55,764 nt of DNA, from positions 1-55,764 of IMG/VR virus record IMGVR_UViG_3300020201_000022, one strand, 5' to 3'. Positions 30,923 through 54,269 of this stretch are shown here, in pieces. Source of the DNA: a virus. The translations under genes and the position numbers were made by a program. The notes under the pieces are model-generated. The model ran no database searches and had not been told where the DNA came from. It saw only the letters and a program-made list of their open reading frames with translations. How positions within the stretch are numbered: position 1 is the first letter of the stretch; each line of letters opens with the position of its first letter.

Positions 30923-32297
30923 CGGCACGATCAAGCCGCTCAATCCTGCCGTACTCGCCGCACAATCGGAAGAACAAGACCAGGTTGCCGAATGGCATGG
31001 GTTCCCGAACGGCATCACGATTCCGCGAGGGCGGCAACACGGAGTCGCGCACTTCCTCCTCGGTGCTGACGATGTTGAAACGCTCAGGGACGCAGCGAAC
31101 ATTGAAATACTGTGCTATCACGAAGATGGCACCACGTTCTGGCACGGCTGGACTCTGCAAGTTGCGGAAGCGATCACCAAACAGAGCAAGCCCGCGCATT
31201 GGGTGCGGTTTGCGGATCCAAGATTTCTTTTTGAAAACAGCACTGCGGAAGGCGAACGCTACAACCTGCGCAATTCCGAAACGGACTTCGTGACAGCCAC
31301 CAAGAACGCTGGCACCGCCTACACCTGGCAGGAAGTGCTCGCAGACTTGTGGGCGAAATTACCTGGCGCTTATGCGGTTCCAACTCTTCCGACGCCCCCG
31401 GCATCGACCCCCGAGAATTTGTACTTCGACGGAATGGGCGCTTGGCGGGCGATCAATCAAGTGCTGAGCGCGATCGGTTGCACAGTTGTCTACGATCCGT
31501 TTACAGCGACGTTTGAGTTTATCGACTTGAATGTTGCGCAATCCATTACCTACCCGACCGATACGCTGCTGTTCGAGGGTTCGGCGATCGGCTCAGGCTT
31601 CGCGCTCCCTCAAAAAGCCGGTGTGCTTTATCACTGGTTGCCGGCAGGCACAAACGACTACTCGCCATTTAGAAAAAAGCCGCATTATCTCGAAGGCACC
31701 GTAGGCGGAACGCAAGGCACGTACGAAATCGTTGATACAACGTTCTACTGGACAGGTCGTTCGATGACTGGTCGGACCGGTGAAGTAGCGACCGCGATCA
31801 AGAACCTGATGGACCCACTTGTTGAGCCCGTACAGAAAACGTTTTCGGGCGTGTTCGAGGAACTGCCAGGCTCGCGGATTTCAGCGATTCGCTGGGTCAG
31901 CGACGGGACGCGAGGCTTTGAGACGTTGGTGTTCTACGGGTTCGAACCGTTTGAGTGGCCGCAATTACCTGATTATGAAGCGCAGGCAGGTGGTTCATCG
32001 ATTCAGTACACTATCGTCTCACTCACCACTGCGACGGGCGGACCGTATACAGGTTTGAAAGTCGCAACCGTGACGATACTTACCGCACCATGCGGACGCA
32101 GCGATCTGATTGGCGATTCCGTCGAAGTCGTGGATCATCTTGGTTGCGTGTTCGATTTAGTCGAAGCCAGCCTGATTGGCGTCAAAGGTTTGGCTGACGA
32201 GCAGGTTGCTGCATCGCTCGAAGCTGGTGCCGCACCTGGGACGATGAGCCCTTGCCATTGGGCCGCTACTGATCGTTGCTGCGTGGGAGGTGCATAA
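30891..32297 (+). CDS. Baseplate hub-like tail protein
   Basis: 468 aa from ATG 30891 (MPEVTRTWRING); an upstream TTG at 30861 is in frame but would lengthen the overlap. The N-terminal 100 residues are beta-rich. The middle (NLYFDGMGAWRAINQVLSAI, TVVYDPFTATFEFID) has the alternation of phage hub proteins that form a trimeric baseplate centre. The last 100 residues (GPYTGLKVATVT, WAATDRCC) are homologous to the separate minus-strand protein at 50636-51076. Here hub and tail-tip domain are fused; there they are split. It follows the injected polyproteins and precedes two tail-tip proteins. Confidence 0.65.
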   Translation: MPEVTRTWRINGTIKPLNPAVLAAQSEEQDQVAEWHGFPNGITIPRGRQHGVAHFLLGADDVETLRDAANIEILCYHEDGTTFWHGWTLQVAEAITKQSKPAHWVRFADPRFLFENSTAEGERYNLRNSETDFVTATKNAGTAYTWQEVLADLWAKLPGAYAVPTLPTPPASTPENLYFDGMGAWRAINQVLSAIGCTVVYDPFTATFEFIDLNVAQSITYPTDTLLFEGSAIGSGFALPQKAGVLYHWLPAGTNDYSPFRKKPHYLEGTVGGTQGTYEIVDTTFYWTGRSMTGRTGEVATAIKNLMDPLVEPVQKTFSGVFEELPGSRISAIRWVSDGTRGFETLVFYGFEPFEWPQLPDYEAQAGGSSIQYTIVSLTTATGGPYTGLKVATVTILTAPCGRSDLIGDSVEVVDHLGCVFDLVEASLIGVKGLADEQVAASLEAGAAPGTMSPCHWAATDRCCVGGA

Positions 32298-33298
32298 TGC
32301 CAACTAGAAGATGCTGCTGCGGCTCGGGTTGCGTGATCGTAGCCGACGATTTTGGGCGTGCCGATAATGCTTCGCTCGGTGCAAGCTGGATTGAATATCC
32401 ATCAGCGGCATTTGAGATTTTTAGCAATCAAGTTCGATCGGTAAACGGCGGCAAAGCAATTCACAACACAGTTCACCCGACTCCATCCGGCTCGATGGCG
32501 GTCTACATTGATACAGTGGCGGAAAACGAAGGCGATGTTTACGATTTGCTTGTTAATGTTGTCGATGCAAACAACCATCATCTAGCAAGGTTTGTCCGCA
32601 ACGATTTATTTGACTCAGAAATTTTACTCTACATTGTCAGCGGTGGAGTTGAAACGCTTCTCAATAGTGCAGTAATTGGCTCTATTAGTGGAACCGCAAG
32701 AACATTTTCAGCGTTTATTGCCGACAATGAATTTTGTGCCCAAGTAACTTTCGGTATCACTTCGCAGGTGACGGCCGACACGACGCTCAAAGCCCTCGGT
32801 TATCAAGCTGGCATCGGCACAACGACGCTTTCTCTGCTGATGGACAACTTTGAGTTTGCGCATCACTTGCAAACTAAAGCAACGTGCCCAAGTTGCGTTT
32901 GCCAATGCGGAATAGAATATGTGCCACCCTGCTTAAACATTCACTTGGAAGGTTCGGGAACCCGCATGGCTGCGCTCAATTGCGATTTCCAATTGCGATG
33001 GAATAGGACCAACGCATACTGGGAAGGAACTGCAAATTGCTGCGGCATCGATTGGCCGATGATCCTTAATTGCGGCGATGCAATATCGTGGGAGACATTC
33101 ACACTACTACCACTTGGATTCGATTGCACCGTGACTAACGGCGGCAACGTCGCTCGTTCCCCTGTGTCCGGATCATGCAGCCCATTCCTGCTGGAGTTCG
33201 GTCCGTACGCTGTGACTTCAGGCGACTTGGCTTGTTTGTGCGGCGGCGTGGGATTCCCCGACACTGGTAGTTGGACAGCAACAATTACGGAGTGTTAA
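32297..33298 (+). CDS. Cysteine-rich tail-tip protein with N-terminal lectin-like domain
   Basis: 333 aa from ATG 32297 (TAATG junction, GGGAGG upstream). N-terminus RRCCCGSGC, then VADDFGRADNASLGASW, the opening of a concanavalin-like jelly roll. Further cysteine groups are CPSCVCQCG (about 204), CCGIDWPMILNCGD and CLCGG near the C-terminus. Highly similar, roughly 85%, to the minus-strand protein at 49620-50624. Probably binds the host surface at the tail tip. The many cysteines imply disulfides in the mature virion or metal sites. Confidence 0.65.
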   Translation: MPTRRCCCGSGCVIVADDFGRADNASLGASWIEYPSAAFEIFSNQVRSVNGGKAIHNTVHPTPSGSMAVYIDTVAENEGDVYDLLVNVVDANNHHLARFVRNDLFDSEILLYIVSGGVETLLNSAVIGSISGTARTFSAFIADNEFCAQVTFGITSQVTADTTLKALGYQAGIGTTTLSLLMDNFEFAHHLQTKATCPSCVCQCGIEYVPPCLNIHLEGSGTRMAALNCDFQLRWNRTNAYWEGTANCCGIDWPMILNCGDAISWETFTLLPLGFDCTVTNGGNVARSPVSGSCSPFLLEFGPYAVTSGDLACLCGGVGFPDTGSWTATITEC

Positions 33299-33754
33299 AT
33301 GACTCCAGAGTTGCAAACAGTGCTTAATCGATCACCAGTTTGGCAACGGCTGTATGATACCGATCCAAGGTATCGAGCGGCATGGGATGCGGGTACAGGT
33401 CCTGGGCAAACAGGACCGCAGCCAGAGATCACCGAAGGACCAAAGTACAATCACTGGGGGCCGCTGCACTGGTACGCAGTCGAGCACGCTGCCGACTGGG
33501 ATGAAGCAAAGGCAAAAGCGTTCTATCGCAATTGGGAAAAGAATATTCCAAATACTGGCGGGTGTAGCTGCCCATCGCACTGGAAAAAGCTTGGTTTGAC
33601 TCCGGACTATTTATCTCCGAAAGCCTTTTTCGAATGGTCGTGGCGTTCTCACAACACAGTCAGCCGTCAGCTCGAAAACAAGCCGACTGTTACGCTCTGC
33701 GAGTGTTACCAAATCTGGTGGCCCGAACGAATGACCAACCGTGACGGCTCTTAA
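33299..33754 (+). CDS. Tail-tip associated protein (Cys/Trp-rich)
   Basis: 151 aa, ATG directly after the previous TAA. Paralogue of 49131-49619 on the minus strand; the first 65 residues are nearly identical (LNRSPVWQRLYDTDPRYRAAWDAG). Features NHWGPLHWYAVEHAADW, the pair CSCPSHW and a terminal CYQIWWPER. Always paired with the cysteine-rich tail-tip protein in this window, so probably its chaperone or partner. Not a recognised family. Confidence 0.6.
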   Translation: MTPELQTVLNRSPVWQRLYDTDPRYRAAWDAGTGPGQTGPQPEITEGPKYNHWGPLHWYAVEHAADWDEAKAKAFYRNWEKNIPNTGGCSCPSHWKKLGLTPDYLSPKAFFEWSWRSHNTVSRQLENKPTVTLCECYQIWWPERMTNRDGS

Positions 33755-35842: not shown

Positions 35843-36673
35843 ATGGGAATTGAAGCAAAAGAAATAGGCAACGAAGAGTATCACAGTCTGCCAGGCATCA
35901 GCAACTCGAAGCTGAGCGTCTTGATTGAAGATCCGCGTGAGTATTTTCACCAGTTTCTCAGCGGGCAGTATGTCAAGAAATCGAAGGATCACTTTGATTT
36001 TGGTCATGCGGTTCATGAAATCTGCCTGCAAGGACTGCATAACGTGCAAGTCATTCCAGCGGAAGTGCTGACGAAGGACGGCAAGCGGGCGGGCAACGCA
36101 TGGCAGCAGTATGCGGCAGAAAATAGCGGCTCGATTTTGATGAAAGCAGCGGACTATCGAGCGGTGATGAATTGCGTCGAAGCGGTCAAGCGGCATCCAG
36201 TTGCGGGTGAGCTATTGAGCGCTCCAGGTTATTCGGAGCGTTACTTTGAGACGACTACCCTAAACGGAACCATCAAGCGATGTAAGCCCGACAGGGTGTG
36301 TGATTGGAACGGCAAGAAGATCGTGGTCGACTTGAAAACGACAACCTGCACACTGGCGCGAAAATTTGTGCGGTCGATCGAGGATTTCGGATACGCTCGG
36401 CAAGAATGCTTCTACCGGGATGTTCTCGAAGCGAATGACGTATTCGTGGATGCGTTTGTGTTCATCGCGGTCAAGGACAGTGCGCCTCACTGCGTCGACT
36501 GCTACTCCATCAAAAACGAGTGGCGAACGATGGCTCGCAAGGAAATCAATGACGCAATCGATGACCTGGAAGAACGGACGGCGACGGGCAATTGGGAATC
36601 GAAAACGGCCAACTTCATCGTTGAGTTGGCACCACCGGGAAACTTAAAATTTAAGGGTGAATACTCATTATGA
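35843..36673 (+). CDS. RecE-type PD-(D/E)XK exonuclease
   Basis: 276 aa, ATG 35843, GAAAGGG upstream. Layout of the phage RecE/DUF3799 exonuclease: ISNSKLSVLIEDPREYFHQF (N-terminal helix), FDFGHAVHEICL (conserved His/Glu helix), KCKPDRV-like Asp in RCKPDRVCDW (about 157), VVDLKTTT (the D-x-K motif, about 165), then FGYARQECFYRDVLEA (Gln/Tyr helix). It degrades one strand from double-stranded ends to give 3' tails for the RecT annealase encoded next (ATGA overlap). Recombination and replication functions of the phage. Confidence 0.88.
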   Translation: MGIEAKEIGNEEYHSLPGISNSKLSVLIEDPREYFHQFLSGQYVKKSKDHFDFGHAVHEICLQGLHNVQVIPAEVLTKDGKRAGNAWQQYAAENSGSILMKAADYRAVMNCVEAVKRHPVAGELLSAPGYSERYFETTTLNGTIKRCKPDRVCDWNGKKIVVDLKTTTCTLARKFVRSIEDFGYARQECFYRDVLEANDVFVDAFVFIAVKDSAPHCVDCYSIKNEWRTMARKEINDAIDDLEERTATGNWESKTANFIVELAPPGNLKFKGEYSL

Positions 36674-37638
36674 CCAACGGAGCAAAAGCAACCGCGATTG
36701 CGGTAGATCAACTGGGAGAGAAGCGGAGCGCCCCAGTCAACGAGCTGCGCAAGTATCTCGAAAAGTTGAAGCCACAACTGCAAGCGGCTTTACCGAAACA
36801 TTTGAACGCAGACCGCATGGCTCGGATTGCAATGACGGAGTTCAGCAAGAACCCAGCGCTGCAAGACTGCACGTTCCAATCGATCGCGGCATGTGTGATG
36901 ACCGCTTCGCAACTCGGTCTGGAAATCGGCGTGGGCGGTCAAGCCTACATGATTCCTTACGGGACCGTGGCAACGTTCGTGCCTGGTTGGAAAGGGCTGA
37001 TTGATCTTGTATCGCGGGCTGGTCGATCGAGCGTTTGGACGGGTGCGGTATTTGATGGCGACGTGTTCGATTGGGAGCTGGGCGATACGCCATTCCTAAA
37101 GCACAAGCCGATGGGCGAGAACGATCCCGACAAGATGCTGTTCGCTTATGCGATCGGCAGAGTCAATGGTTCGGATTGTCCAATCATTGAATGCTGGCCT
37201 AACGCTCGAATCAAGAAGCATTTTGACAAGAACGTGATTCCAAAGTTGCAGCGCAGCCACTACGCCAACAAGCACTGGGAAATGTACGCTCGCAAGGTCG
37301 TATTGTTGCAAGTGCTCAAGTATCTACCTCAGTCGATCGAGTTGCACGCGGCGGTTGAGATTGCACACGCGGCGGATGAAGGACGACCGGTTTCGATCGA
37401 TGCCGACTTTGTGACCATCGAGCACCAAACGGAAGAAAAGCAGCAATTGCCACTGGTTGCCAATCCAATGCCAGTAGGAGCCAGCGAGCCGATGGCGGAC
37501 TTCTGGAAAAAAATGGCGGCGCTCAATGAAGACCGCAAGCTAAGAGAGTGGTCGGACGAGATCGCGAGAACGCCAGCGCTGAACGACGAAGAGAGAGACT
37601 TGCTGTGGGTTGAAATCACGCGGCGGGTTGGAGGCTAA
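36670..37638 (+). CDS. recT: RecT single-strand annealing protein
   Basis: 322 aa, overlapping the exonuclease stop. Recognised by the RecT core: KPQLQAALPKHLNADRMARI, FQSIAACVMTASQLGLEIG, GGQAYMIPYG, ATFVPGWKGLIDLVSRAG, then YANKHWEMYARKVVLLQVLKYLP. Normal length. It coats 3' single strands and anneals them to complementary DNA, making phage recombination independent of host RecA and promoting exchange with other prophages. That is relevant in a window full of shuffled repeats. Confidence 0.95.
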   Translation: MTNGAKATAIAVDQLGEKRSAPVNELRKYLEKLKPQLQAALPKHLNADRMARIAMTEFSKNPALQDCTFQSIAACVMTASQLGLEIGVGGQAYMIPYGTVATFVPGWKGLIDLVSRAGRSSVWTGAVFDGDVFDWELGDTPFLKHKPMGENDPDKMLFAYAIGRVNGSDCPIIECWPNARIKKHFDKNVIPKLQRSHYANKHWEMYARKVVLLQVLKYLPQSIELHAAVEIAHAADEGRPVSIDADFVTIEHQTEEKQQLPLVANPMPVGASEPMADFWKKMAALNEDRKLREWSDEIARTPALNDEERDLLWVEITRRVGG

Positions 37639-38262: not shown

Positions 38263-38517
38263 CTGCGTAATTCTAGCCAGAAGTAACGAACCTTCATGGC
38301 ATCTCAGATGGCGGCGAACACGGAAGTCGTTGCGGTCAAAGCAGGAATCAACACTTCTCCCCGTTGATCGCGTTGAGGGAGAGCGTAAGGGCCGGTTTAT
38401 CACGTGCCTTTCATGCTGGATACGTCAAGGGCCAGCACATTTAACACACAGACGAGAGTGTTGCGACCGCTCTCCGGAATCGCAGCATCGTGTTTTTATT
38501 AGAAAGAGAGTCTATCA

Positions 38518-38709
38518 ATGGTTAGTGAAGAAATAATTTTAGATCGTGATCGTGTTCACTGCATGGTTTTGGTTTTGACGGAACTACTAAAGGTCGAATC
38601 GCATTTTCAGTTTAAGTTGCGGTTCTCCAACAAAGAAACCGGCGAAAGGACGCTAACAATCGTCCCGCACTGTACGCCAGTCGAAATCAAGCTGGAAAGC
38701 TCGCGATGA
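38518..38709 (+). CDS. Small beta-rich hypothetical protein (63 aa)
   Basis: ATG 38518 with AGAAAGAGAG upstream. Strand/helix pattern (DRVHCMVLVLTELLKVES, FQFKLRFSNKETGERTLTIVP). Its stop codon overlaps the left end of the first attC-like site, the same geometry as several genes further right. Function unknown. Confidence 0.6.
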   Translation: MVSEEIILDRDRVHCMVLVLTELLKVESHFQFKLRFSNKETGERTLTIVPHCTPVEIKLESSR

Positions 38710-38791
38710 ACGTTTTGATTCAGGAAGCCGCGACCGCTGCGGCTTCCCTCCACGTTGGAGATGTTAGCGGCTTTCCTGCAATCATTTGTTC
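38708..38791. repeat. attC-like element 1
   Basis: Imperfect inverted repeat of 84 bp. Left arm GAAC-N3-TGATT-N-AGGAAGCCGC pairs with a right arm ending GCGGC-TTTCCT-N-CAATCA-N3-GTTC. Extrahelical bases (one arm has an extra C and an extra A) are typical of attC sites. Ends are GAAC and GTTC. The previous gene's stop overlaps the left end. Confidence 0.75.
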
Positions 38792-38811
38792 TCTGACTCG
38801 TGAGGTTTGAT

Positions 38812-39006
38812 ATGGCGAAAATGATACACGATGATTTCGAGGCTTGGATTCGCGATCGGTCCCGTGGCTGCATGGAGCCGTGCGAAATTGACGAGCTGTG
38901 TAAGGGTGATTTGGATTTTGAATCTGGCGACTACACGTTTCGCGATCTGGCTGTACAAGGACAGTGGGAGGCATGGCAGGCCGCAATTGAGAGCGCTCGC
39001 AGGTAG
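38812..39006 (+). CDS. Cassette protein, acidic, 64 aa
   Basis: ATG 38812 (MAKMIHDDFEAWIRDRS), TGAGG upstream. One Cys pair (CMEPC) and one more Cys (ELC), strongly acidic, ending in a Trp-containing helix (GQWEAWQAAIESARR). It is the only gene between attC-like elements 1 and 2, so it forms a one-gene cassette. Not recognised. Confidence 0.6.
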   Translation: MAKMIHDDFEAWIRDRSRGCMEPCEIDELCKGDLDFESGDYTFRDLAVQGQWEAWQAAIESARR

Positions 39007-39013
39007 AGTCAGA

Positions 39014-39097
39014 GAACGCTCGCATTGAAAACGCGGGCGACGAAATATTGGACCACACCGATAGACCTGATTCGCACGCGTTTTCAATGCGTTGTTA
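39014..39097. repeat. attC-like element 2
   Basis: Inner stem is a perfect 15-bp inverted repeat (39021-39035 with 39077-39091) around a 41-base loop. Outer ends are GAAC (39014-39017) and GTTAC (39094-39098), with unequal spacers between ends and stem. Confidence 0.78.
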
Positions 39098-39134
39098 CCG
39101 CGTCGGAAAACTATTTCGGGAAATACGCAAACAT

Positions 39135-39178
39135 TTCGTAGCTACGCTATTGATTCGTAGCTACGCTACCGATACAAT
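39135..39178 (+). promoter_or_regulatory. Promoter with two palindromic operator-like sites
   Basis: -35 TTGATT (39150-39155), 17-base spacer, -10 TACAAT (39173-39178). The 10-bp palindrome CGTAGCTACG occurs twice, at 39137-39146 (upstream of -35) and 39156-39165 (inside the spacer), 19 bp apart, each within a 15-bp direct repeat. Two dimers on the same DNA face would block RNA polymerase. The ribbon-helix-helix protein at 39602 is the obvious candidate regulator. Confidence 0.68.
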
Positions 39179-39227
39179 TAGGTATCGCAACAACGCGACG
39201 CAGTGAAACGCCAAACGGGAAAAGACG

Positions 39228-39602
39228 ATGACCACAACAAGCAGGATCTTGACTGATGGACGAAAGCTCGAAATCGAATCAGCGAACCGCTCCGTGAAGG
39301 AATGGAGAGTTTCGATCGACGGTAATTGTGTTGGTGAGGTAAATGGGGTTTACGCTTTCAATGAAAGCCAAATGCCCGTAAGGGATGGCGTGCGTTTTAC
39401 GCACTTCGTGAAGTTCGCTCATGATTCCTCTTTCTGCCTGCCAATTACCTCTAGCGAGTGGTCGCAACTCGAACCGCAGTGGGAAGCCGGGGGAATCGTT
39501 GACGAGGGCGCACGCAAGACCCGACCAGCAGATGCAATGCGGGCAGGTGCTCGCCGAGAATCCTTAATGGAATTCAACGATGAAAATGTGGAGTGCGGTT
39601 GA
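39228..39602 (+). CDS. Cassette protein, possible partner of RHH protein
   Basis: 124 aa, ATG 39228, about 50 bases after the -10 box. N-terminal beta hairpins (RILTDGRKLEIES, KEWRVSIDGNCVGEV), then a helix and an Ala/Arg-rich C-terminus. Its stop overlaps the start of the RHH gene. Two-gene unit, palindromic autoregulatory-looking operator and a small RHH second gene together resemble a toxin-antitoxin or regulator pair, but no toxin motif is visible. Confidence 0.6.
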   Translation: MTTTSRILTDGRKLEIESANRSVKEWRVSIDGNCVGEVNGVYAFNESQMPVRDGVRFTHFVKFAHDSSFCLPITSSEWSQLEPQWEAGGIVDEGARKTRPADAMRAGARRESLMEFNDENVECG

Positions 39603-39793
39603 TGCCACGTCATAGCCTCGGCACAAAAGCCCCCAGCGGCGCAAGCCGCGTTATCCGCTGCAAAATCAGTGAAGCGGAAGAGCATGCGGCGAAAGCCGCT
39701 GTGAATGAAGGCGAAAGCCTGAGTGAGCTAATTCGGATCGCGTTAGCTCGTGAAGTCAAACGCCGCGAAAAGGCTGCAAGTCGATCGCGGTAA
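39602..39793 (+). CDS. Ribbon-helix-helix DNA-binding protein (63 aa)
   Basis: ATG 39602, overlapping the previous TGA. SRVIRCKISEAEEHAAKAAVNEGESLSELIRIALAREVKRRE follows the CopG/Arc pattern: one strand (VIRCKIS), helix, turn (GESLSEL), helix. Basic C-terminus. Likely dimeric repressor acting on the CGTAGCTACG palindromes upstream. Its TAA is part of the TAACG left end of the next attC-like element. Confidence 0.75.
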   Translation: MPRHSLGTKAPSGASRVIRCKISEAEEHAAKAAVNEGESLSELIRIALAREVKRREKAASRSR

Positions 39794-39876
39794 CGTCAGC
39801 AATAATCCGCGTCGGGAGGCGCGACTATGACCAAACCAAAAGACACCAATCCCGACTCGGATTCATTGCGTTGTTC
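39791..39876. repeat. attC-like element 3 (85-bp repeat, copy A)
   Basis: Left arm AAC-N4-GCAAT-N-ATCCG-N-GTCGGGA pairs with right arm TCCCGAC-N-CGGAT-TCATTGC-N2-GTTC. 39792-39876 is identical over 85 bp to 42232-42316. It contains GGGAGG and the ATG (39827) of the gene to its right. Confidence 0.85.
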
Positions 39877-40147
39877 GTCAGCGAATTACGCTGACGGCAC
39901 ACCAATAACTCCAGAGTGGTTGGACTCGATATTCACGAGCGAAACGATGAACGGACATTCCCTACTGATCGACGGCTATGGCGATCTAATCGAATTGTAT
40001 CTTGCAGAAGATATTGACAAGCCGGGCGTTTATCGTGCGTCAATGATGCAGAGCGAGCCAGCGGACCTTATTGCGATTACTGGTCGCGTTTTCGTTACGC
40101 GCGGAAGCGTGCATTTGCTATTGAATGCGTTGGGGCATTTCGTCTGA
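39827..40147 (+). CDS. Cassette protein with attC-encoded N-terminus
   Basis: 106 aa if the ATG inside the attC-like element is used (GGGAGG eight bases upstream). The first 16 residues (MTKPKDTNPDSDSLRC) are then encoded by the element and are identical to those of 42267-42500. The unique part has an acidic alpha/beta pattern (TPITPEWLDSIF, LIDGYGDLIELYLAEDI, LIAITGRVFVTRG). Function unknown. A later start is possible, but no better SD is visible. Confidence 0.6.
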   Translation: MTKPKDTNPDSDSLRCSSANYADGTPITPEWLDSIFTSETMNGHSLLIDGYGDLIELYLAEDIDKPGVYRASMMQSEPADLIAITGRVFVTRGSVHLLLNALGHFV

Positions 40148-40235
40148 CGAACGTTGAATTCATTTGGTTCGCGGGTTTGAGTTCGCCCCGCACAAACCAA
40201 CGTAATGCGAACTCAAATGCAATTATTTGTTCGTC
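40146..40235. repeat. attC-like element 4
   Basis: Ends GACGAAC (40146-40152) and GTTCGTC (40229-40235) are exact reverse complements. Inner stem TTTGAGTTCGC (40176-40186) with GCGAACTCAAA (40207-40217). The left arm carries an extra duplicated ATTTGGTTCGC segment, so the arms are unequal. Confidence 0.78.
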
Positions 40236-40252
40236 GTTTCGGGAGTGCAGGC

Positions 40253-41140
40253 ATGGCAGAGAATAGCAAGATAGAGTGGACCGACCACACGTTTAATCCT
40301 TGGATGGGTTGCACAAAAGTTAGCCCTGCGTGCAAGAATTGTTACGCCGAACGCGATATGGATCACCGCTACGGCAAGGTTCAGTGGGGGCCAAACGGAA
40401 CGCGAGTAAAAACAAGCGTTGATAATTGGAGGAAGCCATTGCGATGGAATCGCGACGCACAAGAAAAGGGGGTTCGCTATCGCGTCTTTTGCGCATCACT
40501 TGCGGATGTGTTTGAGGATTGGGATGGACCCATGTTGACACATACCGGAGAGCAATACGAATTGACGATGGCAGGCGTTCGGCGCGAGTTGTTTCAGTTG
40601 ATCGACAACACGCCAAATCTCGATTGGTTACTGTTGACCAAGCGACCTGAAAACATCACAGAGCTATGGGTCGGTGGAACACGGTCGAACGTCTGGCTCG
40701 GAACGTCGATCGAGAATCAAGAGTGGGCCGATAAGCGATTGCCGCATTTGCATCACGTCAAGCGACAAGGGTTTGTCAACACAACATTCGTTTCAGCAGA
40801 ACCTTTGGTCGGGCCAATCATGTTGAAAGGTGAGCAAGACGGTTTGACGTACAACCACCTTGGACGCATGGGAATCGATTGGGTCATCACTGGTGGCGAA
40901 AGCGGACCGGACGCAAGGCCATGCAAGCCAGAATGGTTCCAGTCGCTACGCGACCAATGCGTAGCAGCGGGAACGGCGTTCCATTTCAAGCAGTGGGGCG
41001 AATTCGACGCAGAGGAAAAGCGAGTCGGAAAAAAGAACGCTGGCCGTCTTCTTGACGGTCGGACTCATGACGGTCTACCGATCGTTGCGGTTGGCGGGCT
41101 GAAAAGTATTTCGCACAAAATGGCCGAAATTGATAAATAG
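40253..41140 (+). CDS. DUF5131 / phage Gp37-Gp68 family protein
   Basis: 295 aa from ATG 40253. An upstream in-frame ATG (40205) lies inside the attC-like element and gives an unlikely extension. Hallmarks: KIEWTDHTFNPWMGCTKVSP, CKNCYAERD (three cysteines), FCASLADVFEDW, DWLLLTKRPENI, NVWLGTSIENQ, ISAEPL-type VSAEPLVG, DWVITGGESGP and HFKQWGE. This is the standard full-length family, a TIM-barrel fold with a C-x3-C-like cluster reminiscent of radical SAM proteins. Biochemical role in phages is not established. First gene of the largest cassette (40146-41750). Confidence 0.88.
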   Translation: MAENSKIEWTDHTFNPWMGCTKVSPACKNCYAERDMDHRYGKVQWGPNGTRVKTSVDNWRKPLRWNRDAQEKGVRYRVFCASLADVFEDWDGPMLTHTGEQYELTMAGVRRELFQLIDNTPNLDWLLLTKRPENITELWVGGTRSNVWLGTSIENQEWADKRLPHLHHVKRQGFVNTTFVSAEPLVGPIMLKGEQDGLTYNHLGRMGIDWVITGGESGPDARPCKPEWFQSLRDQCVAAGTAFHFKQWGEFDAEEKRVGKKNAGRLLDGRTHDGLPIVAVGGLKSISHKMAEIDK

Positions 41141-41143
41141 CAC

Positions 41144-41174
41144 TTGCTTATTCGGCCAATGTGGCCGATACTAT
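41144..41174 (+). promoter_or_regulatory. Promoter with internal 7-3-7 operator
   Basis: TTGCTT (41144-41149) and TACTAT (41169-41174) are separated by 19 bases (18 if TGCTTA is taken as -35). The spacer holds a perfect palindrome TCGGCCA-ATG-TGGCCGA (41152-41168). An extra TGGCCGA half-site lies at 41121-41127. It would drive the two genes at 41226 and 41540, of which the second is a small HTH protein and may bind here. Confidence 0.6.
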
Positions 41175-41225
41175 AGGCATGGCGAGTGAGGGTCACCCGC
41201 CGAAAACAAAAATTGGAGAACAAAC

Positions 41226-41540
41226 ATGAGCAAGACAGTACGAGTGATCGGCGACACAAAAGCAATCAAAGAAACACTCAAGAAGCACGGCTTTTTGTGG
41301 AACGCAGAAAAGTCGCGATGGCATAAATCGGTGAGCGACACGCAAGCTGAGCAACTGCTGAACGCAGACACACAGGACGCAACGCTGGCTGCGTTCCAGT
41401 GGAAATATCGAGGGTGCCAAGTGTCGGTGGGCGACACAGTGGTTTTCACGAGCAAGAAATTTGCGACTCTGGCTTCTGATGGCCAGTCGGACCCCGACGC
41501 TTTGGATGCAGATGGGCAGCCAAGATGGATGAGCTATTAA
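41226..41540 (+). CDS. Cassette hypothetical protein (104 aa)
   Basis: ATG 41226, TTGGAGAAC upstream. N-terminal alpha/beta unit: VRVIGDTKAIKETLKKHGFLWNAEKSRWHKSV. This pattern (strand, helix, GF-W-x-x-x-x-W) resembles small phage domains that bind nucleic acid or act as adaptors. Residues 60-80 form a beta pair (CQVSVGDTVVFTSKKF). The stop overlaps the next ATG (TAATG). A homologue probably lies just beyond the right window edge, since the last 12 bases of this gene are repeated there. Confidence 0.6.
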   Translation: MSKTVRVIGDTKAIKETLKKHGFLWNAEKSRWHKSVSDTQAEQLLNADTQDATLAAFQWKYRGCQVSVGDTVVFTSKKFATLASDGQSDPDALDADGQPRWMSY

Positions 41541-41747
41541 TGATTGATCCAACGAAGTACGGCACGATCACTGAGACGGCTCAGGCCGCCGGGATCGGTC
41601 GCGGTGGATTGCGTCACGCAATTGATCGCGGCGAGATCACGCAAACCGTCGAAACAATCGGTGGCACAACGCTGGTGAGTGTGGCGGCTGCGTTGCGTTG
41701 GTCAAAAAACCGGCCACCGCGAGGGCCAAAGCGGCAGGACAAATCCG
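41528..41747 (+). repeat. 220-bp inverted repeat, left copy
   Basis: Reverse complement of 55545-55764 with one mismatch. Covers the last bases of the preceding gene and almost all of the small HTH gene. The similarity runs to the window edge, so the full repeat is longer. Confidence 0.95.
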
Positions 41748-41752
41748 CATAA
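41540..41752 (+). CDS. Small HTH protein, module 1 copy
   Basis: 70 aa from ATG 41540 (TAATG junction); an in-frame ATG at 41525 is also possible. TITETAQAAGIGRGGLRHAIDRGEI is a helix-turn-helix, followed by VETIGGTTLVSVAAALRW and a basic Arg/Lys/Pro tail. It looks like a MerR/excisionase-like DNA binder. Differs from the copy at 55540-55752 by one internal residue and the last one (Ala versus Glu). The TAA forms the TAACG left end of attC-like element 5. Confidence 0.72.
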   Translation: MIDPTKYGTITETAQAAGIGRGGLRHAIDRGEITQTVETIGGTTLVSVAAALRWSKNRPPRGPKRQDKSA

Positions 41753-41834
41753 CGTTTTGATTCATCGAGCAACGGAAAGTAAACAATGACTACAAAAAAC
41801 GCTCAACCCGTTGCTTCGATGCAATCAATTGTTC
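41750..41834. repeat. attC-like element 5
   Basis: Left arm TAACGTT-TTGATT-N-ATCGA-GCAACGG pairs with right arm CCGTTGC-TTCGAT-N-CAATCA-ATTGTTC. One extra base in the right arm (TTCGAT opposite ATCGA) and one at N. Contains the ATG (41786) of the cysteine-protease gene. Confidence 0.8.
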
Positions 41835-42223
41835 GTCGTCTCCCTAATGCGGTAAAGCAGACGACGCCAACCAATTGTTTCCAAGCATGTGTTGCAACAG
41901 TGCTTGGCGTGCCGATTGAAGACGTGCCCGAAGCGTGTGATGGTGCCAAGTGGGATTGGGATGCGTTCCAAGACTGGCTGGCGTTGCGAGGGCTGCAAGC
42001 GATTGAAGTCGGATTCGGAAATGGTGGAACCATTTACCCAGTGCGTCATCCGGTGTTGTGCATTGTCACCGGAAGATCGCCGCGAGAATGCACAACAGGC
42101 CGTCACGCGGTCGTAGGCGAATTACTAGGGCTGGAAGGATTCCGATTGCTGCATGATCCGCATCCGTCTGATGTGTGGATTGACGGCGAGCCAACGCACG
42201 CTGTGTTTTTTGTTTCGATTTGA
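41786..42223 (+). CDS. Papain-like (C39-like) cysteine protease, cassette gene
   Basis: 145 aa, ATG 41786 inside attC-like element 5. The first 16 residues are therefore encoded by the element. TPTNCFQACVATVLGVPIEDVPE carries the catalytic-type Gln-x-x-Cys region: CFQACVA with a preceding Asn/Thr helix cap. GRHAVVGE (about 111) holds the His, and HDPHPSDVW gives the following Asp/Asn region. This is the arrangement of small phage C39-like peptidases (TNCF-A-C pattern). Substrate unknown; possibly host proteins. Whether the attC-encoded start is used is uncertain, but the catalytic Cys is outside the element. Confidence 0.75.
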   Translation: MTTKNAQPVASMQSIVRRLPNAVKQTTPTNCFQACVATVLGVPIEDVPEACDGAKWDWDAFQDWLALRGLQAIEVGFGNGGTIYPVRHPVLCIVTGRSPRECTTGRHAVVGELLGLEGFRLLHDPHPSDVWIDGEPTHAVFFVSI

Positions 42224-42230
42224 GTACGAC

Positions 42231-42316
42231 GAACGTCAGCAATAATCCGCGTCGGGAGGCGCGACTATGACCAAACCAAAAGACACCAATCCCGACTCGG
42301 ATTCATTGCGTTGTTC
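42231..42316. repeat. attC-like element 6 (85-bp repeat, copy B)
   Basis: Identical to element 3 over 85 bp. Ends GAAC (42231-42234) and GTTC (42313-42316). Holds the GGGAGG and ATG (42267) of the next gene. Confidence 0.85.
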
Positions 42317-42500
42317 TGTCGCTACGCCAGTCGGGGTTGTGCCGTGCAAGGTCGGGACGCAACCGTGGCTGGTCGTGGTAAACAGAAGACGCAAAACAAT
42401 TAAGGTCGGCGACGTTATTTTAATACGCGAGGCCGGCGTAGGACACAAATGGATTCGCGTTCGTGTCGAGAATCTCGAACCTTTGCGAGTTAGTCGATAG
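42267..42500 (+). CDS. Cassette protein with attC-encoded N-terminus, beta-barrel-like
   Basis: 77 aa with the same first 17 residues as 39827-40147. The unique part reads as a small SH3/KOW-like barrel: VVPCKVGTQPWLVVVNRRRK, TIKVGDVILIREAG, KWIRVRVENLEPLRV. It might bind RNA or DNA. Overlaps the next attC-like element at its stop codon. Confidence 0.6.
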   Translation: MTKPKDTNPDSDSLRCSVATPVGVVPCKVGTQPWLVVVNRRRKTIKVGDVILIREAGVGHKWIRVRVENLEPLRVSR

Positions 42501-42584
42501 AACGATTACAATCACCGGGAACGCGGTGACAAACTAACCATTTCAAAAGACTTCGCCGCGTTCTCCGGTGCATTGTCTTGTTCT
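42499..42584. repeat. attC-like element 7
   Basis: Left arm AGAAC-N4-CAAT-N-ACCGG-GAACGCGG pairs with right arm CCGCGTT-CTCCGGTG-CATTG-TC-N-TGTTCT. Ends AGAAC and GTTCT. Central loop about 25 bases. Confidence 0.82.
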
Positions 42585-42609
42585 AACGCCAGAGTTTACG
42601 GAAACGAAA

Positions 42610-43029
42610 ATGATTCGCGAAATACTAAAAGAAGCGGCTGATTTATTTAAGAAGCTAGAAGAGGCAGAGTACGCAGAAAAGCTTACTAAGTCCTACGAGG
42701 TCGGCAAAAATAATGCAGTGGAGTTGCCGTTCGCTCCCGGAGATACCGTGTATCAATACGGAATTGGAGATCATGAATTTTCGGAGTATCGCGTTGAAGC
42801 GGAAAATAGATTGCATTGGTGTCGTACACGATACCGCTGGGCCGATCAGGACGACATCGAGACGCTCGCATTGACGAAGGCTGAAGCCGCGACGAAGTTT
42901 GCCGTTTGGCTTGGGACTGCCAGCCAGGAAGATAAAGACGAAGCCGCAAAAGGCATTGCGGAATCGCTTGATTACCACCGGAAGAACCTTGCGGATTACG
43001 AACTTATTAGCGCGGCTATTGGTCGTTAG
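42610..43029 (+). CDS. Cassette hypothetical protein (139 aa)
   Basis: ATG 42610, preceded by TTACGGAAACG. N-terminal coiled coil (IREILKEAADLFKKLEEAEYAEKL), central beta region (LPFAPGDTVYQYGIGDHEF, RVEAENRLHWCRTRYRWAD) and a helical C-terminus. Not recognised. The TAG overlaps a GAAC that begins a half attC-like sequence (43029-43040). Confidence 0.6.
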   Translation: MIREILKEAADLFKKLEEAEYAEKLTKSYEVGKNNAVELPFAPGDTVYQYGIGDHEFSEYRVEAENRLHWCRTRYRWADQDDIETLALTKAEAATKFAVWLGTASQEDKDEAAKGIAESLDYHRKNLADYELISAAIGR

Positions 43030-43040
43030 AACAACTTATT
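43029..43040. repeat. Junction: GAACAACTTATT, right end of the cassette run
   Basis: GAACAACTTATT at 43029-43040 looks like a left attC end, but no matching right arm follows. The same AACAACTTATT directly follows the stop of the other HTH copy (55541-55531, minus strand), so this is probably the original flank of the cassette insertion. Confidence 0.65.
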
Positions 43041-43173
43041 ATGACGCTACGCGCAGAATAATTCTCGAGGCAGTGCCGTTGATATCGACGCAGATTGCGA
43101 ACCCTCAGTTGCGAGTTTTTGCGGGTTAGAAAACTCGATTTATTAGTGATCGAAAACGGATAGGTAAAACAGC

Positions 43174-43989
43174 ATGAAGCGGGACGCTTTTACACACCCC
43201 AAAACGCTCGACTTGGCATCGCGATTAGACATTAGCCGCGCTCACGCGATCGGTATCCTGGCGCTACTCTGCGACTTCACGGCGACCTACGCTCCGCAGG
43301 GTGACATCGGTAAACATCGCGATGGTGCGATAGCTCGCGGGTGTGACTGGGTAGGTAATCCAGGGGAATTTATTCAAGCCCTACTGGACTCCGGGTGGTT
43401 GGACCTAGACCCCTCACATAGACTGGTTGTGCACGATTGGGAAGACCATTGCGAGCAGTGGGTTAGACTCAAATTGGCTAAACTGAAACTAGCCTTTATA
43501 GTGGTAAAATCCTCAGCAGAGCCTATTGCAGAGCCTATTGCAGAGCGCTCAGCAGAAGCCAGCGCCTCGCGTGACCTATCCTATCCTATCCTATCCCCTC
43601 CTAGCCTAGCCAAGCCTTCACCCTCCTCTACCCTCCTATCCTCAGCAGTGCCGACTAGATCGATGGACGAGGACGAGGGAATTTTGAAAGTTGATTTTGA
43701 TGATTGCTTACGATCGTGCTTGCGGTTGAGCAAGGCGTGTCTTGCACGATCGCACAAGCTGTCAGCCGACGAAATCTGGAAGCTCGTCTGGATGGCGATG
43801 GCGCTGGGGCAGGATGGCCTCATCGCGGAAGTAGCTACGAAGATTCACAACCGAGAAGTCACGAAGCCCAAAGCGTATATCGACGCGTCATTGCGAAAGG
43901 CGTGTATCGAGCGAAACACCGATATGCTTCGTGTCGCAAGGTGCGCACCCGAAAGACCGAAACCAATTACGGCCAACGCGGATATTTAA
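43174..43989 (+). CDS. Replication initiator / DnaD-like protein
   Basis: 271 aa, ATG 43174. The N-terminal 105 residues form a winged-helix replisome-organiser-like domain: DAFTHPKTLDLASRLDISRAH, IGILALLCDFT, GAIARGCDWVGNPGEFIQAL, SGWLDLD and LVVHDWEDH. A Ser/Pro/Ala linker (about 118-160) carries duplicated EPIAEPIAE and lies over a pentanucleotide repeat. The C-terminal helical domain (LRSCLRLSKACLARSHKLSADEIWKLVWMAMAL) resembles a DnaD-like second domain. It would open the phage origin and recruit helicase. No helicase loader follows; RusA does. Confidence 0.75.
   Translation: MKRDAFTHPKTLDLASRLDISRAHAIGILALLCDFTATYAPQGDIGKHRDGAIARGCDWVGNPGEFIQALLDSGWLDLDPSHRLVVHDWEDHCEQWVRLKLAKLKLAFIVVKSSAEPIAEPIAERSAEASASRDLSYPILSPPSLAKPSPSSTLLSSAVPTRSMDEDEGILKVDFDDCLRSCLRLSKACLARSHKLSADEIWKLVWMAMALGQDGLIAEVATKIHNREVTKPKAYIDASLRKACIERNTDMLRVARCAPERPKPITANADI
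43576..43595 (+). repeat. Pentanucleotide repeat (CTATC)4 in coding sequence
   Basis: Four perfect CTATC units inside the linker of the replication gene, followed by a C/T-rich imperfect stretch to about 43640. Gain or loss of one unit would shift the frame before the C-terminal domain. Confidence 0.9.
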
Positions 43990-46523: not shown

Positions 46524-47271
46524 GCCAATCCTGATTCTGCTGCTGCTGTGCTCGTCTGCTTTCGCGCAAGTGAAGGTTGATGTCGAACCGTTCTCCGCGA
46601 TCATCGCGAAGTCTGCGAGAGTTGAGCCCCTGGTTGATTCCGTGGCGGTCATAGTCACTGATCGAATCGCTGATCGTAGCGGAGCGTTCTTGACGATAGC
46701 TTCCGAATCGAAGTGGGCAACTCCGTATATCGATGCAAGCGGCGTGGAGATTTCTCAATCGCAGGCTGACGCAAAACGCTGGATCATGTTTGCGAAGCCG
46801 GGCAAGTATCGCGTGCAAATCATCGAATTCGACCCAGAGCGCGGACCACGATTCACGCCCGTCGAAGTCGTTATCGGCACGCCAACAAAACCCGATGAGC
46901 CCGGCACGCCCGAAAAACCCGAAGATCCAAAGCCGCCAGTCGGCGATTTTGTTGCGTTGAGAAACTCGGCGGATGAACTGGCCGACAAACTGAACGATCC
47001 GCCAACGCGAGCATCACTCGCGAAAGCCTACGAACATGCTCTCAATGCAGCGGCCGGCAAAGACTATGCTCAGTCGCGTGAGATTGTCACGATGTCGCGC
47101 TTCATCGCGCTCAACTCGCGCGAAGGTGCATCGCTCCAGAAGGATTGGACCTCCGGCTTCCTAAAGCCAATTGACGCTAAACTCTCGCAACTCGTAAAAG
47201 CCGGCGACGTGGCCGCGTACGCGCTCGCAATTACAGCGATTCAAAAAGGCTTAGTTCAAAATGCCAACTGA
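46516..47271 (+). CDS. Secreted protein with Pro-rich linker, lysis region
   Basis: 251 aa from ATG 46516, overlapping the subtilase end. Signal peptide MFKPILILLLLCSSAFAQ, then a beta domain (VDSVAVIVTDRIADRSGAFL, KYRVQIIEFDPERGP), a Pro/Glu/Lys linker (TPTKPDEPGTPEKPEDPKPP) and a helical C-terminus. The C-terminal 63 residues match the truncated gene at 2-193, so at least two related lysis cassettes exist. No enzyme motif is seen; possibly a periplasmic adaptor. Confidence 0.7.
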   Translation: MFKPILILLLLCSSAFAQVKVDVEPFSAIIAKSARVEPLVDSVAVIVTDRIADRSGAFLTIASESKWATPYIDASGVEISQSQADAKRWIMFAKPGKYRVQIIEFDPERGPRFTPVEVVIGTPTKPDEPGTPEKPEDPKPPVGDFVALRNSADELADKLNDPPTRASLAKAYEHALNAAAGKDYAQSREIVTMSRFIALNSREGASLQKDWTSGFLKPIDAKLSQLVKAGDVAAYALAITAIQKGLVQNAN

Positions 47272-47566
47272 TCCAAACATTATCGGCAGTGTCCTTTCAA
47301 CGCTTGGCATTGGCGGCGCTCTGGTGTGGTATCTGTATTACACCACCAGCGTGACAATGCCGAAACGTGATGATCACTACTCGCAAACGCTAAACGAGAT
47401 CACCAAAGAGTTTACGACGTGCCTGAAGGAAGAGCGAGATTATCGACGCACTGAGATCATCGAACTCAAGGCGGTCATTCGTGAATCCAGGTGCCTGTTT
47501 ACTTTGCCAGAAAAACAGAATCAAAGAGTACAGCAAGAATCGGAATCAACTCGGAATGAACCTTGA
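47261..47566 (+). CDS. Holin/spanin-like membrane protein (101 aa)
   Basis: ATG 47261 overlapping the previous stop. One N-terminal membrane span (IIGSVLSTLGIGGALVWYLYY), then a charged helical body (YSQTLNEITKEFTTCLKEERDYRRTEIIELKAVIRE) and a polar tail. The topology of an i-spanin or of phage holin-like proteins with a coiled-coil periplasmic domain. It partners with the next small membrane gene, which overlaps its end, as spanin pairs often do. Confidence 0.6.
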   Translation: MPTDPNIIGSVLSTLGIGGALVWYLYYTTSVTMPKRDDHYSQTLNEITKEFTTCLKEERDYRRTEIIELKAVIRESRCLFTLPEKQNQRVQQESESTRNEP

Positions 47567-47675
47567 CGCCCAACAATTTGCAGTGGTCGCCGTGATGCTC
47601 TGTATCCTGCTCATCACTTACGCCTGCCTCTATCGCTGGGACGAAAACTACCCGAACGATCAAGGCGCTGAATAA
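47556..47675 (+). CDS. Small membrane protein (39 aa)
   Basis: ATG 47556, overlapping the preceding gene by 11 bases. MNLDAQQFAVVAVMLCILLITYACLYRW: one span, then an acidic tail. A Cys in the hydrophobic segment is not a lipobox. Occupies the same place as the 48-aa protein at 209-355. Confidence 0.55.
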   Translation: MNLDAQQFAVVAVMLCILLITYACLYRWDENYPNDQGAE

Positions 47676-47721
47676 TTTTGCGGGCAACCGGCCGCATGAA
47701 ACCGTAACCCGAGCTGACCCA

Positions 47722-48048
47722 ATGCCACCACCGACCGCTCGCCCGTCGCTATGTTCAACTTGCGGCGCTCGCAAGATAGGCCGCTGCAATCGCTGCCGCC
47801 AGCCTCGCACCAATCGCAAGTCAGCGCATCAGCGGGGCTACGATCGTCGCTGGCGAACCGCGTCGCTGACCTTCCTTGCTCGGCCCGAAAACCGCACCTG
47901 TGCCATCTGCAAAAATCGCCTCGCCGAATGCGTCGACCACATCATTGACCATCACGGCGACAAAGAAACATTCTGGGACGTGAGCAACTGGCAACCCGCC
48001 TGCATCGCCTGCAACACCCGCAAAGCCCACCGCCGCAAACGCCACTAA
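47722..48048 (+). CDS. HNH endonuclease
   Basis: 108 aa, ATG 47722. Zinc-finger-like pairs CSTC (about 11) and CNRC (about 22), then the HNH core: CAICKNRLAECVDHIIDHHGDKETF, ending NWQPACIACNTRKAHR. Two CxxC pairs bind structural zinc and the VDHI/N...H residues form the active site. Phage HNH proteins of this size next to terminase genes are known to aid DNA packaging by cutting at cos or pac sites. Its neighbour is a P27-type small terminase, a classic pairing. Confidence 0.92.
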   Translation: MPPPTARPSLCSTCGARKIGRCNRCRQPRTNRKSAHQRGYDRRWRTASLTFLARPENRTCAICKNRLAECVDHIIDHHGDKETFWDVSNWQPACIACNTRKAHRRKRH

Positions 48049-48101
48049 GCACCAAGCACCAAGCACTCCCCACCAAGCACCAAGCACCAAGCACCAAGCA
48101 C
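48046..48101. repeat. Heptamer tandem repeat (AAGCACC)n
   Basis: About seven AAGCACC units in two blocks separated by CACTCCCC, starting at the stop codon of the HNH gene. Similar arrays lie at 48626-48657, 52102-52203 and 54233-54263. Confidence 0.95.
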
Positions 48102-48114
48102 GAATTTGAATTAA

Positions 48115-48615
48115 ATGGGCCAACGCGGACCGCTCCCCAAACCAACTTCAGCTCGAGCGCGCGAAGGCAACCCGCGCCGGCGTCCGCTGCCAACGGATGA
48201 ACCCAGCCCGGCAGAGATCGCTATCGACCGCCTGCCACCACCGCCGGATCATCTGACCGCCGACGCCAAGCAAGTATTCTCCGCGCTCGCCAAGCTGCTG
48301 AGCGATTCGAAATTGCTGACCGTTGCCGACGTGCTGCCCATTGAATTACTGGCCGACTGCTACACGCAATGGATCAAGGCGCTGAAGATCCGCGCCGAGG
48401 CTGGCGTGATAACGCAGATGCTGAACCGCGATGGCGAAGTAATCGGTTCATGCGAGTCCGCGGAATCGAAGCTCTGTAGATCCTTGGCCGCCGACTGCAA
48501 CCGCTGGTTCAAAGTTTTAGGCCTCGGCCCCGCCTACCGCGTCGGCTTGCGAATGACCACCGACGGAGCCGACGAAATCGAAGATCCATTGGCCGCGTCG
48601 ATAGCGAATGGATAA
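48115..48615 (+). CDS. terS: P27-family terminase small subunit
   Basis: 166 aa, ATG 48115. Begins MGQRGPLPKPTSARAREGNP, the N-terminal signature of the P27/HK97-type small terminase (MxxRGPxPxPxxLKxLxGN). Helices with DHLTADAKQVFSALAKLLSD and LLADCYTQWIKALK follow, and the end includes the common FKVLGLGPAYRVGL. A complete subunit, distinct from the terS at 3778. It is flanked by inverted heptamer repeats and has no large subunit downstream, since the next genes run the other way. Confidence 0.88.
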   Translation: MGQRGPLPKPTSARAREGNPRRRPLPTDEPSPAEIAIDRLPPPPDHLTADAKQVFSALAKLLSDSKLLTVADVLPIELLADCYTQWIKALKIRAEAGVITQMLNRDGEVIGSCESAESKLCRSLAADCNRWFKVLGLGPAYRVGLRMTTDGADEIEDPLAASIANG

Positions 48616-48625
48616 CAAACAAAAC

Positions 48626-48657
48626 CGTGCTTGGTTCTTGGTGCTTGGTGCTTGGTT
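48626..48657. repeat. Heptamer tandem repeat, inverted orientation
   Basis: GGTGCTT/GGTTCTT-type heptamers between the convergent ends of the P27 TerS gene and the minus-strand decoration gene. They can pair with the array at 48046-48101, making inverted repeats around the TerS gene. Confidence 0.9.
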
Positions 48658-49066
48658 ACGCGTGCAGGATGTCGGTGGCTTCGATGGAGAGATCTAACTG
48701 GGTCGCTGTTGCAGCGGTGCCTAGTCGACTGATCCGATTGCCGGTCGCTAGATCCGCGTCGGGCACAACCTCACCAGCCGTTGCACCGACGTAATAGGTC
48801 TCTCCGACCAGCATCGTTGTGCCGACCAGAATCACACTGCCCGCCGTTGCCACGTAGCCGTAGCCGTCGGCGACGCCTGGCGTCATCGACACGCCTTTGA
48901 CCGTCGCCGCCGCCGAGCTGAGATTGTTGTCAGACAATTTTACCTTGTTGTCCGTCGCGTCCAGATAGACAGGTTGCCCGGCTGCGATCGTGGCCCCGTA
49001 TTTGTAGCGGGTGCTCTTCGTGTCGGCAGTTGGTCGAACCGCTGTAATACCAGTTAATGCCGCCAT
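48656..49066 (-). CDS. Head decoration / capsid cement-like protein (DUF2190-like)
   Basis: 136 aa on the minus strand, ATG 49066. Small beta-rich protein: YKYGATIAAGQPVYLDATDNKVK, ATVKGVSMTPG, GDGYGYVATAGSVILVG-like repeats and GETYYVGATAGEV. This is the pattern of DUF2190/cement proteins, trimeric capsid stabilisers. It is the last gene of the minus-strand module before the convergent junction. A capsid partner is not in the window. Confidence 0.65.
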   Translation of the reverse strand: MAALTGITAVRPTADTKSTRYKYGATIAAGQPVYLDATDNKVKLSDNNLSSAAATVKGVSMTPGVADGYGYVATAGSVILVGTTMLVGETYYVGATAGEVVPDADLATGNRISRLGTAATATQLDLSIEATDILHA

Positions 49067-49130
49067 TTGATCCGCTCCCGAAAGTGCCTACAAAATCACA
49101 AAGAATCTACCCGTTATCAACGTTGCCAAT

Positions 49131-49619
49131 CTAAACGGCTATCTGGGACTTGTCCGACGTTTCAGCGTTCAGCAATAAACGCTCCGGCCACCAAATCGCG
49201 TAGCACTCATCCAGCGTAATGCGATTGATCCGCTTCCCCTGCTCGATCAATTCCGCCGTCACCACATCGTGCATACTCCAGCACGATTCGAAGAACGCCG
49301 GCGCGGATCCAAAATCAGGTTTCAATGCCAACCGCAACCAATTCGATTTGCACCCGCAACCCTTTTCAGGAATCCGTTTTTCCCAGTGATTGAAAAATAA
49401 CTTGGCTCTGCGAACCGACCAGTCCGCCGCGTGCTCTACTGCATACCAATGCAGCGGTGCCCAGTGATTGTATCGCGGTCCTTCGGTGACTTCCGGTTGT
49501 GGTCCTGATTGCCCTGGACCTGCACCCGCATCCCAGGCCGCTCGATACCTTGGATCTGTATCGTACAGCCGTTGCCACACTGGCGACCGATTAAGGACTG
49601 CTTGTAGTTCAGGTGTCAT
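49131..49619 (-). CDS. Tail-tip associated protein, module 2 copy
   Basis: 162 aa, minus ATG 49619, directly after the TAA of the gene upstream. Paralogue of 33299-33754: first 65 residues nearly identical (LNRSPVWQRLYDTDPRYRAAWDAG). The rest diverges but keeps the C-x-C and the YAIWWPER-like end. Same gene order and same TAA-ATG junction as in module 1. Function inferred only from its pairing with the cysteine-rich protein. Confidence 0.65.
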   Translation of the reverse strand: MTPELQAVLNRSPVWQRLYDTDPRYRAAWDAGAGPGQSGPQPEVTEGPRYNHWAPLHWYAVEHAADWSVRRAKLFFNHWEKRIPEKGCGCKSNWLRLALKPDFGSAPAFFESCWSMHDVVTAELIEQGKRINRITLDECYAIWWPERLLLNAETSDKSQIAV

Positions 49620-50624: not shown

Positions 50625-50635
50625 TGTTCAAACTC

Positions 50636-52098: not shown

Positions 52099-52101
52099 AA
52101 C

Positions 52102-52203: not shown

Positions 52204-52212
52204 ATGTATTAT

Positions 52213-54228: not shown

Positions 54229-54232
54229 AGTT

Positions 54233-54263: not shown

Positions 54264-54269
54264 CATTTA

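Follow-up and report, generated by a model that had tools for sequence, protein, structure and literature searches.

The window analysed here, which is the whole of IMG/VR record IMGVR_UViG_3300020201_000022 (55,764 bases), carries genes for terminase, portal, exonuclease VIII, RecT, a replication initiator, and further phage proteins. Between recT and the replication initiator gene, at 38709-43029, lies an array of seven imperfect inverted repeats and small plus-strand genes, which an earlier reading of the DNA letters (the original prediction) had taken for integron-like cassettes. Integrons are taught as bacterial platforms of fixed polarity, whose cassettes point away from the integrase, with transcription from the cassette promoter Pc. 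The array of the window is very probably a seven-cassette integron array of the CALIN type (cluster of attC sites lacking an integron integrase) within the early replication and recombination operon of a tailed phage, with its open reading frames (ORFs) pointing toward attI.

All seven repeats of the original prediction are present, each measuring 82-84 nt from AAC core to GTT core, and they fall within 3.9 kb. They are the best-scoring AAC...GTT hairpins of the entire window, with scores of 26-36 compared with 25 for the next, and only 2 of 200 dinucleotide shuffles of 38500-43150 gave a best single score above 25. The stems are intact at every site. The right ends read GTTC in six sites and GTTA(C) at 39015, as had been described, and each left AAC core has a stop codon at -2 to +8 nt, in keeping with the reported overlap or abutment. 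Extrahelical bases of the attC kind, claimed for the whole set, occur in six of the seven sites, at equal places (~5 bp, G, 6 bp, A) and always in the 5′ arm of the minus strand, but the site at 39015 (attC 2) is a perfect stem without them and has possibly decayed. The claim that arm sequences differ while cores and fold are kept holds generally, with length and extrahelical positions also retained, but fails for attC 3 (39792) and attC 6 (42232), which are near-identical (~99%) and head different genes. An exact search of viral and genome collections with the attC 3 sequence gave no match.

These hairpins are integron attC sites. A covariance model, R1, was trained on eight attC sites from ordinary-orientation phage arrays (L085, L092, L163, L192, and L198), none of them from the window. 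With filters off, the seven window sites, and no others, make up its top seven matches in 36-45 kb; every one lies on the minus strand, at 10.3-36.3 bits, and the next-best match scores 6.6 bits. The E-values of the model, which are rough, go down to 5e-10, and default filters retain two sites (E 3e-9 and 4e-7). The two-strand scan proposed in the original prediction thus recovers the sites on one strand only. The attC top strand is the window minus strand and the array genes are all on the plus strand; therefore, all seven cassettes are reversed, as had been suspected, and the usual form, with the gene along the attC top strand and away from attI, is seen in none of the seven. The sites have the R and L boxes, AAC/GTT cores, and extrahelical bases of integron cassettes (the last missing in attC 2), and seven same-strand attC sites in 3.9 kb with no intI nearby correspond to a CALIN. 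Neither TIGR02249 (IntI) nor PF00589 was found in the window record, which holds no tyrosine recombinase of any kind, in agreement with the originally noted absence of an integron integrase. The intI gene in cis that marks a complete integron is thus missing in the window and is found in relatives (G2, L200, L205, L209, and others).

A search for intI elsewhere, also proposed originally, found IntI genes adjoining the same kind of array in related viral records. One of these, G2 (IMGVR_UViG_3300037070_001164), was reached through the DUF5131 protein of cassette 4. Its IntI scores 321 bits with TIGR02249 (cut-off 265) and has IntI4 (PDB 2a3v) as its best solved relative. G2 holds at least 10 near-uniform attC sites and several more divergent ones on the plus strand, while its cassette genes and intI lie on the minus strand. 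A provirus record, UViG_2509276001_000003 (G1/L078), has a G2-like arrangement with no intI in its record. The DUF5131 protein of the window is 64% identical to that of G2 and 63% identical to that of G1.

For the relatives L200 and L201, reversed polarity is proved by natural insertions and deletions: across 4.1 kb that include IntI the two share 99.93% identity, yet their arrays differ by two insertions and one deletion. All three breaks fall exactly at |AAC left of a hairpin, and the hairpin is kept each time by the gene to its right; it is therefore not part of the preceding gene. Such breaks are the product expected from R′ recombination with the minus strand as the top strand. L226 and L230, ~97% identical around intI, show a wholesale exchange of content between the same two fixed ends.

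At its right end, the window array terminates at 43030 in AACAACTTATT, with no hairpin. The same 11-mer ends three arrays: that of the window, a window fragment at 55541 (minus strand), and that of G1. The equivalent fixed end reads AACTTAAATTCAACG in the IntI-bearing relatives L200, L201, and L167, where it lies ~85 nt before intI, and AACGTYAATTCGACC in L226 and L230. We infer that AACAACTTATT, AACTTAAATTCAACG, and AACGTYAATTCGACC are attI sites. A Pc promoter at attI would be antisense to the cassette genes. The window has two copies of the 3′ part of cassette 4: gene 4c is followed by attC 5 in the array and by the attI-like motif in the second copy, with both joints at the AAC core. Movement of units with breaks at the core is thus seen both in the two contexts of cassette 4c and in the three clean cassette indels of L200/L201.

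The polarity of phage-borne arrays was surveyed by scanning viral contigs with an IntI-specific alignment and taking the best-scoring 80 of 417 loci. Viral and bacterial loci passed through a single pipeline, composed of a hairpin scanner, a polarity call from extrahelical bases, and ORFs requiring a ribosome site; the scanner and the ORF caller were home-made. Without the ribosome-site requirement, several relatives appeared mixed or normal, and the requirement resolved them. The viral arrays comprise 17 reversed, 6 normal, and 3 uncallable cases (17/23 classifiable arrays reversed), counts that hold near-duplicates (L200/L201/L204 and L226/L230) and leave aside L186 and L217, which were not classifiable or not counted. 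Five of the six normal arrays have a flipped intI, such that intI and cassettes are again co-directional, while the sixth (L233) comes from a bacterial isolate record, as IMG/VR records can include bacterial DNA. The bacterial control, 20 chromosomal regions with IntI, gave seven normal, no reversed, and two uncallable arrays. Type A viral records have tail genes and a separate phage integrase adjoining intI. In the IntI tree, most IntIs of reversed arrays stand apart from the bacterial ones, those of the type B phages group in a separate clade, and the positions of G2 and L208 are elsewhere again. On the basis of this placement, several origins are likely.

The features of the locus are listed in Table 1.

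Table 1. Array parts and neighbouring features of the window (CM, score with covariance model R1; phrog and PF entries are family matches)
Feature	Position	Strand	Remarks
Exonuclease VIII-like gene (phage recombination module, upstream of array)	35843..36673	+	phrog_412, E 4e-48
RecT-like annealing protein gene	36670..37638	+	phrog_148, E 4e-56
63-aa ORF directly ahead of array; stop overlaps first core	38518..38709	+	
attC 1, two extrahelical bases	38709..38790	-	CM 13.4 bits
Cassette 1 gene, 64 aa, no assigned function	38812..39006	+	
attC 2, perfect stem	39015..39096	-	CM 10.3 bits
Cassette 2 gene a, 124 aa, no assigned function	39228..39602	+	
Cassette 2 gene b, 66 aa, Arc-like repressor	39593..39793	+	phrog_6506, E 1e-5
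attC 3, carries GGGAGG ribosome site and ATG of next gene	39792..39875	-	CM 12.8 bits
Cassette 3 gene, 106 aa; first 17 aa MTKPKDTNPDSDSLRCS from attC 3	39827..40147	+	
attC 4	40150..40231	-	CM 19.6 bits
Cassette 4 gene a, DUF5131 (Gp37/Gp68-like) protein	40253..41140	+	PF07505, E 5e-77
Cassette 4 gene b, 104 aa, no assigned function	41226..41540	+	
Cassette 4 gene c, 75 aa, weakly similar to phage DNA-binding proteins	41525..41752	+	
attC 5, carries ribosome site and ATG of next gene	41751..41833	-	CM 36.3 bits
Cassette 5 gene, 145 aa	41786..42223	+	phrog_5845
attC 6, near-identical to attC 3	42232..42315	-	CM 12.5 bits
Cassette 6 gene, 77 aa; attC-encoded first 17 aa as in cassette 3	42267..42500	+	
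attC 7	42501..42582	-	CM 29.8 bits
Cassette 7 gene, 139 aa, adjoins attI-like end	42610..43029	+	
attI-like motif, candidate fixed array end	43030..43046	-	plus strand reads AACAACTTATTATGACG; 11-mer at same end of two further arrays
Phage replication initiation protein gene, downstream of array	43174..43989	+	phrog_9474, E 9e-20
Second copy (99%) of 3′ part of cassette 4 (ORF 41525-41752), different phage context	55539..55764	-	ends at AAC and attI-like AACAACTTATT

Several attC sites also appear to take part in translation. Because the near-identical attC 3 and attC 6 hold GGGAGG and an ATG, two different proteins share their first 17 residues, MTKPKDTNPDSDSLRCS. Among reversed arrays, a ribosome site and start codon reading into the gene are found in 17/35 attC sites that measure 78 nt or more and in 4/44 shorter ones. 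Protein starts of 16-20 residues encoded by attC occur at 39827-39877 and 42267-42317 of the window and at 31792 and 34964 of G2 (reversed coordinates); in G2, unrelated cassette proteins have the common attC-encoded N-terminus M(E/D)N...AVNRGDCY. The first core is likewise the end point of the ORF at 38518-38709; this ORF, upstream of which no attC was found, is either a backbone gene or a cassette that has lost its own attC.

DUF5131 (Gp37/Gp68) recurs within or next to phage cassette arrays, reversed as well as normal (window 40253-41140, G1 26617-27567, G2 17992-18996, L085, and L092). Since L085 and L092 have the normal orientation, DUF5131 alone is not a marker of the reversed type. Immediately beyond the attI-like end of the array in G1 lies a gene (L078 7021-8157) that we take, by eye, to be TnpB-like. 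In some temperate phages, IntI stands beside the lysogeny integrase of the phage itself (phrog_1; L204 13431-14582, L209 5935-7269, and L226 10629-11921); these are two tyrosine recombinases with different jobs. A second phage layout combines cassettes of ordinary polarity with a flipped intI, so that both run in the same direction; it is found in L159 (Virus Rctr41k, KX853513), L163, L178, L192, and L198. The Rctr41k record labels intI simply as xerD and leaves its six attC sites unannotated.

The ends of the window bear on the structure of the phage genome. Positions 1-189 match 47070-47258 at 97% identity, and contig L021, near-identical to the window, fuses 47258 directly to ~190, while window 47259-55764 is not colinear with L021. 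Because of this terminal repeat and the join in L021, the phage genome is probably a 47.07-kb circle. Window 49419-50625 is 80% identical, in inverted orientation, to 32296-33499, and the final 8.5 kb resembles either a fragment of a related phage or an insert. The RecT-sharing phages compared lack the array, which answers the earlier call for presence or absence in relatives; the block is therefore not a fixed part of the recT neighbourhood. All the checks suggested with the original prediction have thus come out in its favour. A RecT search of genome contigs returned two loci only, a replication-protein scan across viral contigs gave no match, and palindrome and composition statistics of the window did not identify a host.

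Since the phage genes around the array point to the right, a cassette must be reversed to be read in sense. Each cassette consists of an attC followed by its own gene or genes downstream, and in the proposed mechanism the folded, recombinogenic bottom strand would be the window plus strand. As the record is without IntI or other tyrosine integrase, recombination either proceeds in trans or has ceased. An IntI acting in trans today, from a host integron or another phage, would join the attC of an incoming cassette to the attI-like site at 43030, and new cassettes would enter at the right end of the array. Expression would be driven by the operon, through read-through from upstream phage promoters and in line with recT and the replication gene, rather than from Pc. 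Each cassette supplies its own ribosome site, which in attC 3, 5, and 6 lies within the attC itself.

Several observations weigh against the mobile-array reading: the record has no IntI or tyrosine recombinase, so that current mobility of the window array is only presumed; attC 2 is devoid of extrahelical bases; four sites score only 10-13 bits; the attI-like motif is short and marks a candidate site only; the last 8.5 kb, home of the second cassette copy, may be a chimeric join; and no second genome of the window phage covering the array was found, such that no indel is seen in its own lineage. The first of these, together with the state of attC 2 and the several low-scoring sites, also speaks for a relict, in which cassettes captured by an integrase-bearing ancestor now form an immobile part of the phage operon. 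Yet the stems of all seven sites are intact, a 99%-identical cassette piece occurs in two contexts, attC 3 and attC 6 are 99% identical copies ahead of different genes, and RecT-bearing relatives do not have the array. A relict is thus doubtful, though it is the alternative to be taken most seriously.

The remaining alternatives are much less probable. The AAC...GTT cores are symmetric, so that polarity rests on extra bases, spacing, and context, and gene stops abut the left cores as they abut attC in ordinary cassettes; one could hence read the plus strand as the top strand, with each cassette composed of a gene and the hairpin after it, and with no reversal. However, the covariance model, with its training set of ordinary orientation, recognises the seven sites on the minus strand alone, the gene at 42610-43029 would be left without its own attC, and the hairpin-free array end sits where the putative attI lies in IntI-bearing relatives. 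Moreover, the L200/L201 hairpins travel with the downstream gene (3/3), which refutes normal polarity for the relatives and makes it very unlikely for the window. An assembly artefact fusing phage and bacterial integron DNA is about equally improbable: the record has at least one doubtful join (that of its end, 47259-55764), but the array lies deep inside the 47-kb part with co-directional phage genes on both flanks, and the DUF5131 cassette, reversed attC sites, AACAACTTATT, a subtilase, and the replication gene recur in the independent provirus record G1/L078. Least plausible of all is that the sites have nothing to do with integrons and represent a family of intergenic hairpins, transcription terminators, or non-autonomous transposable elements. 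Their stems are strong and portions of some match loose terminator patterns, but the arms vary while cores, length, and extrahelical positions are kept, the attC model matches them with E-values down to 5e-10, and sites of the same kind adjoin true IntI in relatives.

Beyond the window, it is somewhat more likely than not that phages own an integron class with reversed cassettes, in which the array forms part of a phage operon under phage promoters and attC sites double as translation starts and sometimes as N-termini. This class would have arisen more than once, beside the flipped-intI solution, and its cassette pool would be largely separate from that of bacterial integrons, since a cassette of the ordinary kind would be read in the wrong direction. 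With reversed polarity as the rule in phage-borne arrays, phages appear as integron users in their own right and not merely as carriers, and the reversed arrays suggest a separate phage pool of accessory cassette genes. A simple rule may be put forward: genes follow the phage operon, and either the cassettes or intI flip to obey. Annotation tools that assume the ordinary cassette orientation will misannotate reversed arrays. No account of arrays reversed as a rule was found in the open-licence literature searched, which is not proof of priority.

Compared with bacterial chromosomal integrons, the phage arrays share the IntI family (TIGR02249), the attC geometry, and, with the putative attI of the IntI-bearing relatives, an attI just upstream of intI. 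In contrast, the genes of all seven classifiable control arrays run along the attC top strand and diverge from intI. Phage genomes are known to hold integrase-less attC clusters and integrons, and phage attC sites are used by IntI1 with a preference for the bottom strand (Qi et al. 2023, PMC9892861). The window likewise presents an attC cluster without an integrase in a phage genome. However, the cassettes described there are typical same-direction ones or have divergent attC sites, and that paper reports no systematic reversal of genes relative to attC, whereas reversal is the rule here and many phages carry IntI in cis. In integrons of the Treponema type, intI is flipped and co-directional with the cassette genes (PMC3607928). 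The type B phages L178, L192, L198, and Virus Rctr41k have this same layout. The Treponema integrons pair ordinary cassettes with an intI that is inverted relative to attI, while the window type has the ordinary intI-attI-array geometry and flipped cassette genes. A lone reversed cassette, symE/sRNA-Xcc1, which is not under Pc, has been described in Xanthomonas (PMC12444791) and resembles the present cassettes in that its gene runs opposite to the usual direction. It is, however, an exception within an ordinary array, whereas in the window the whole array is aligned with the phage operon.

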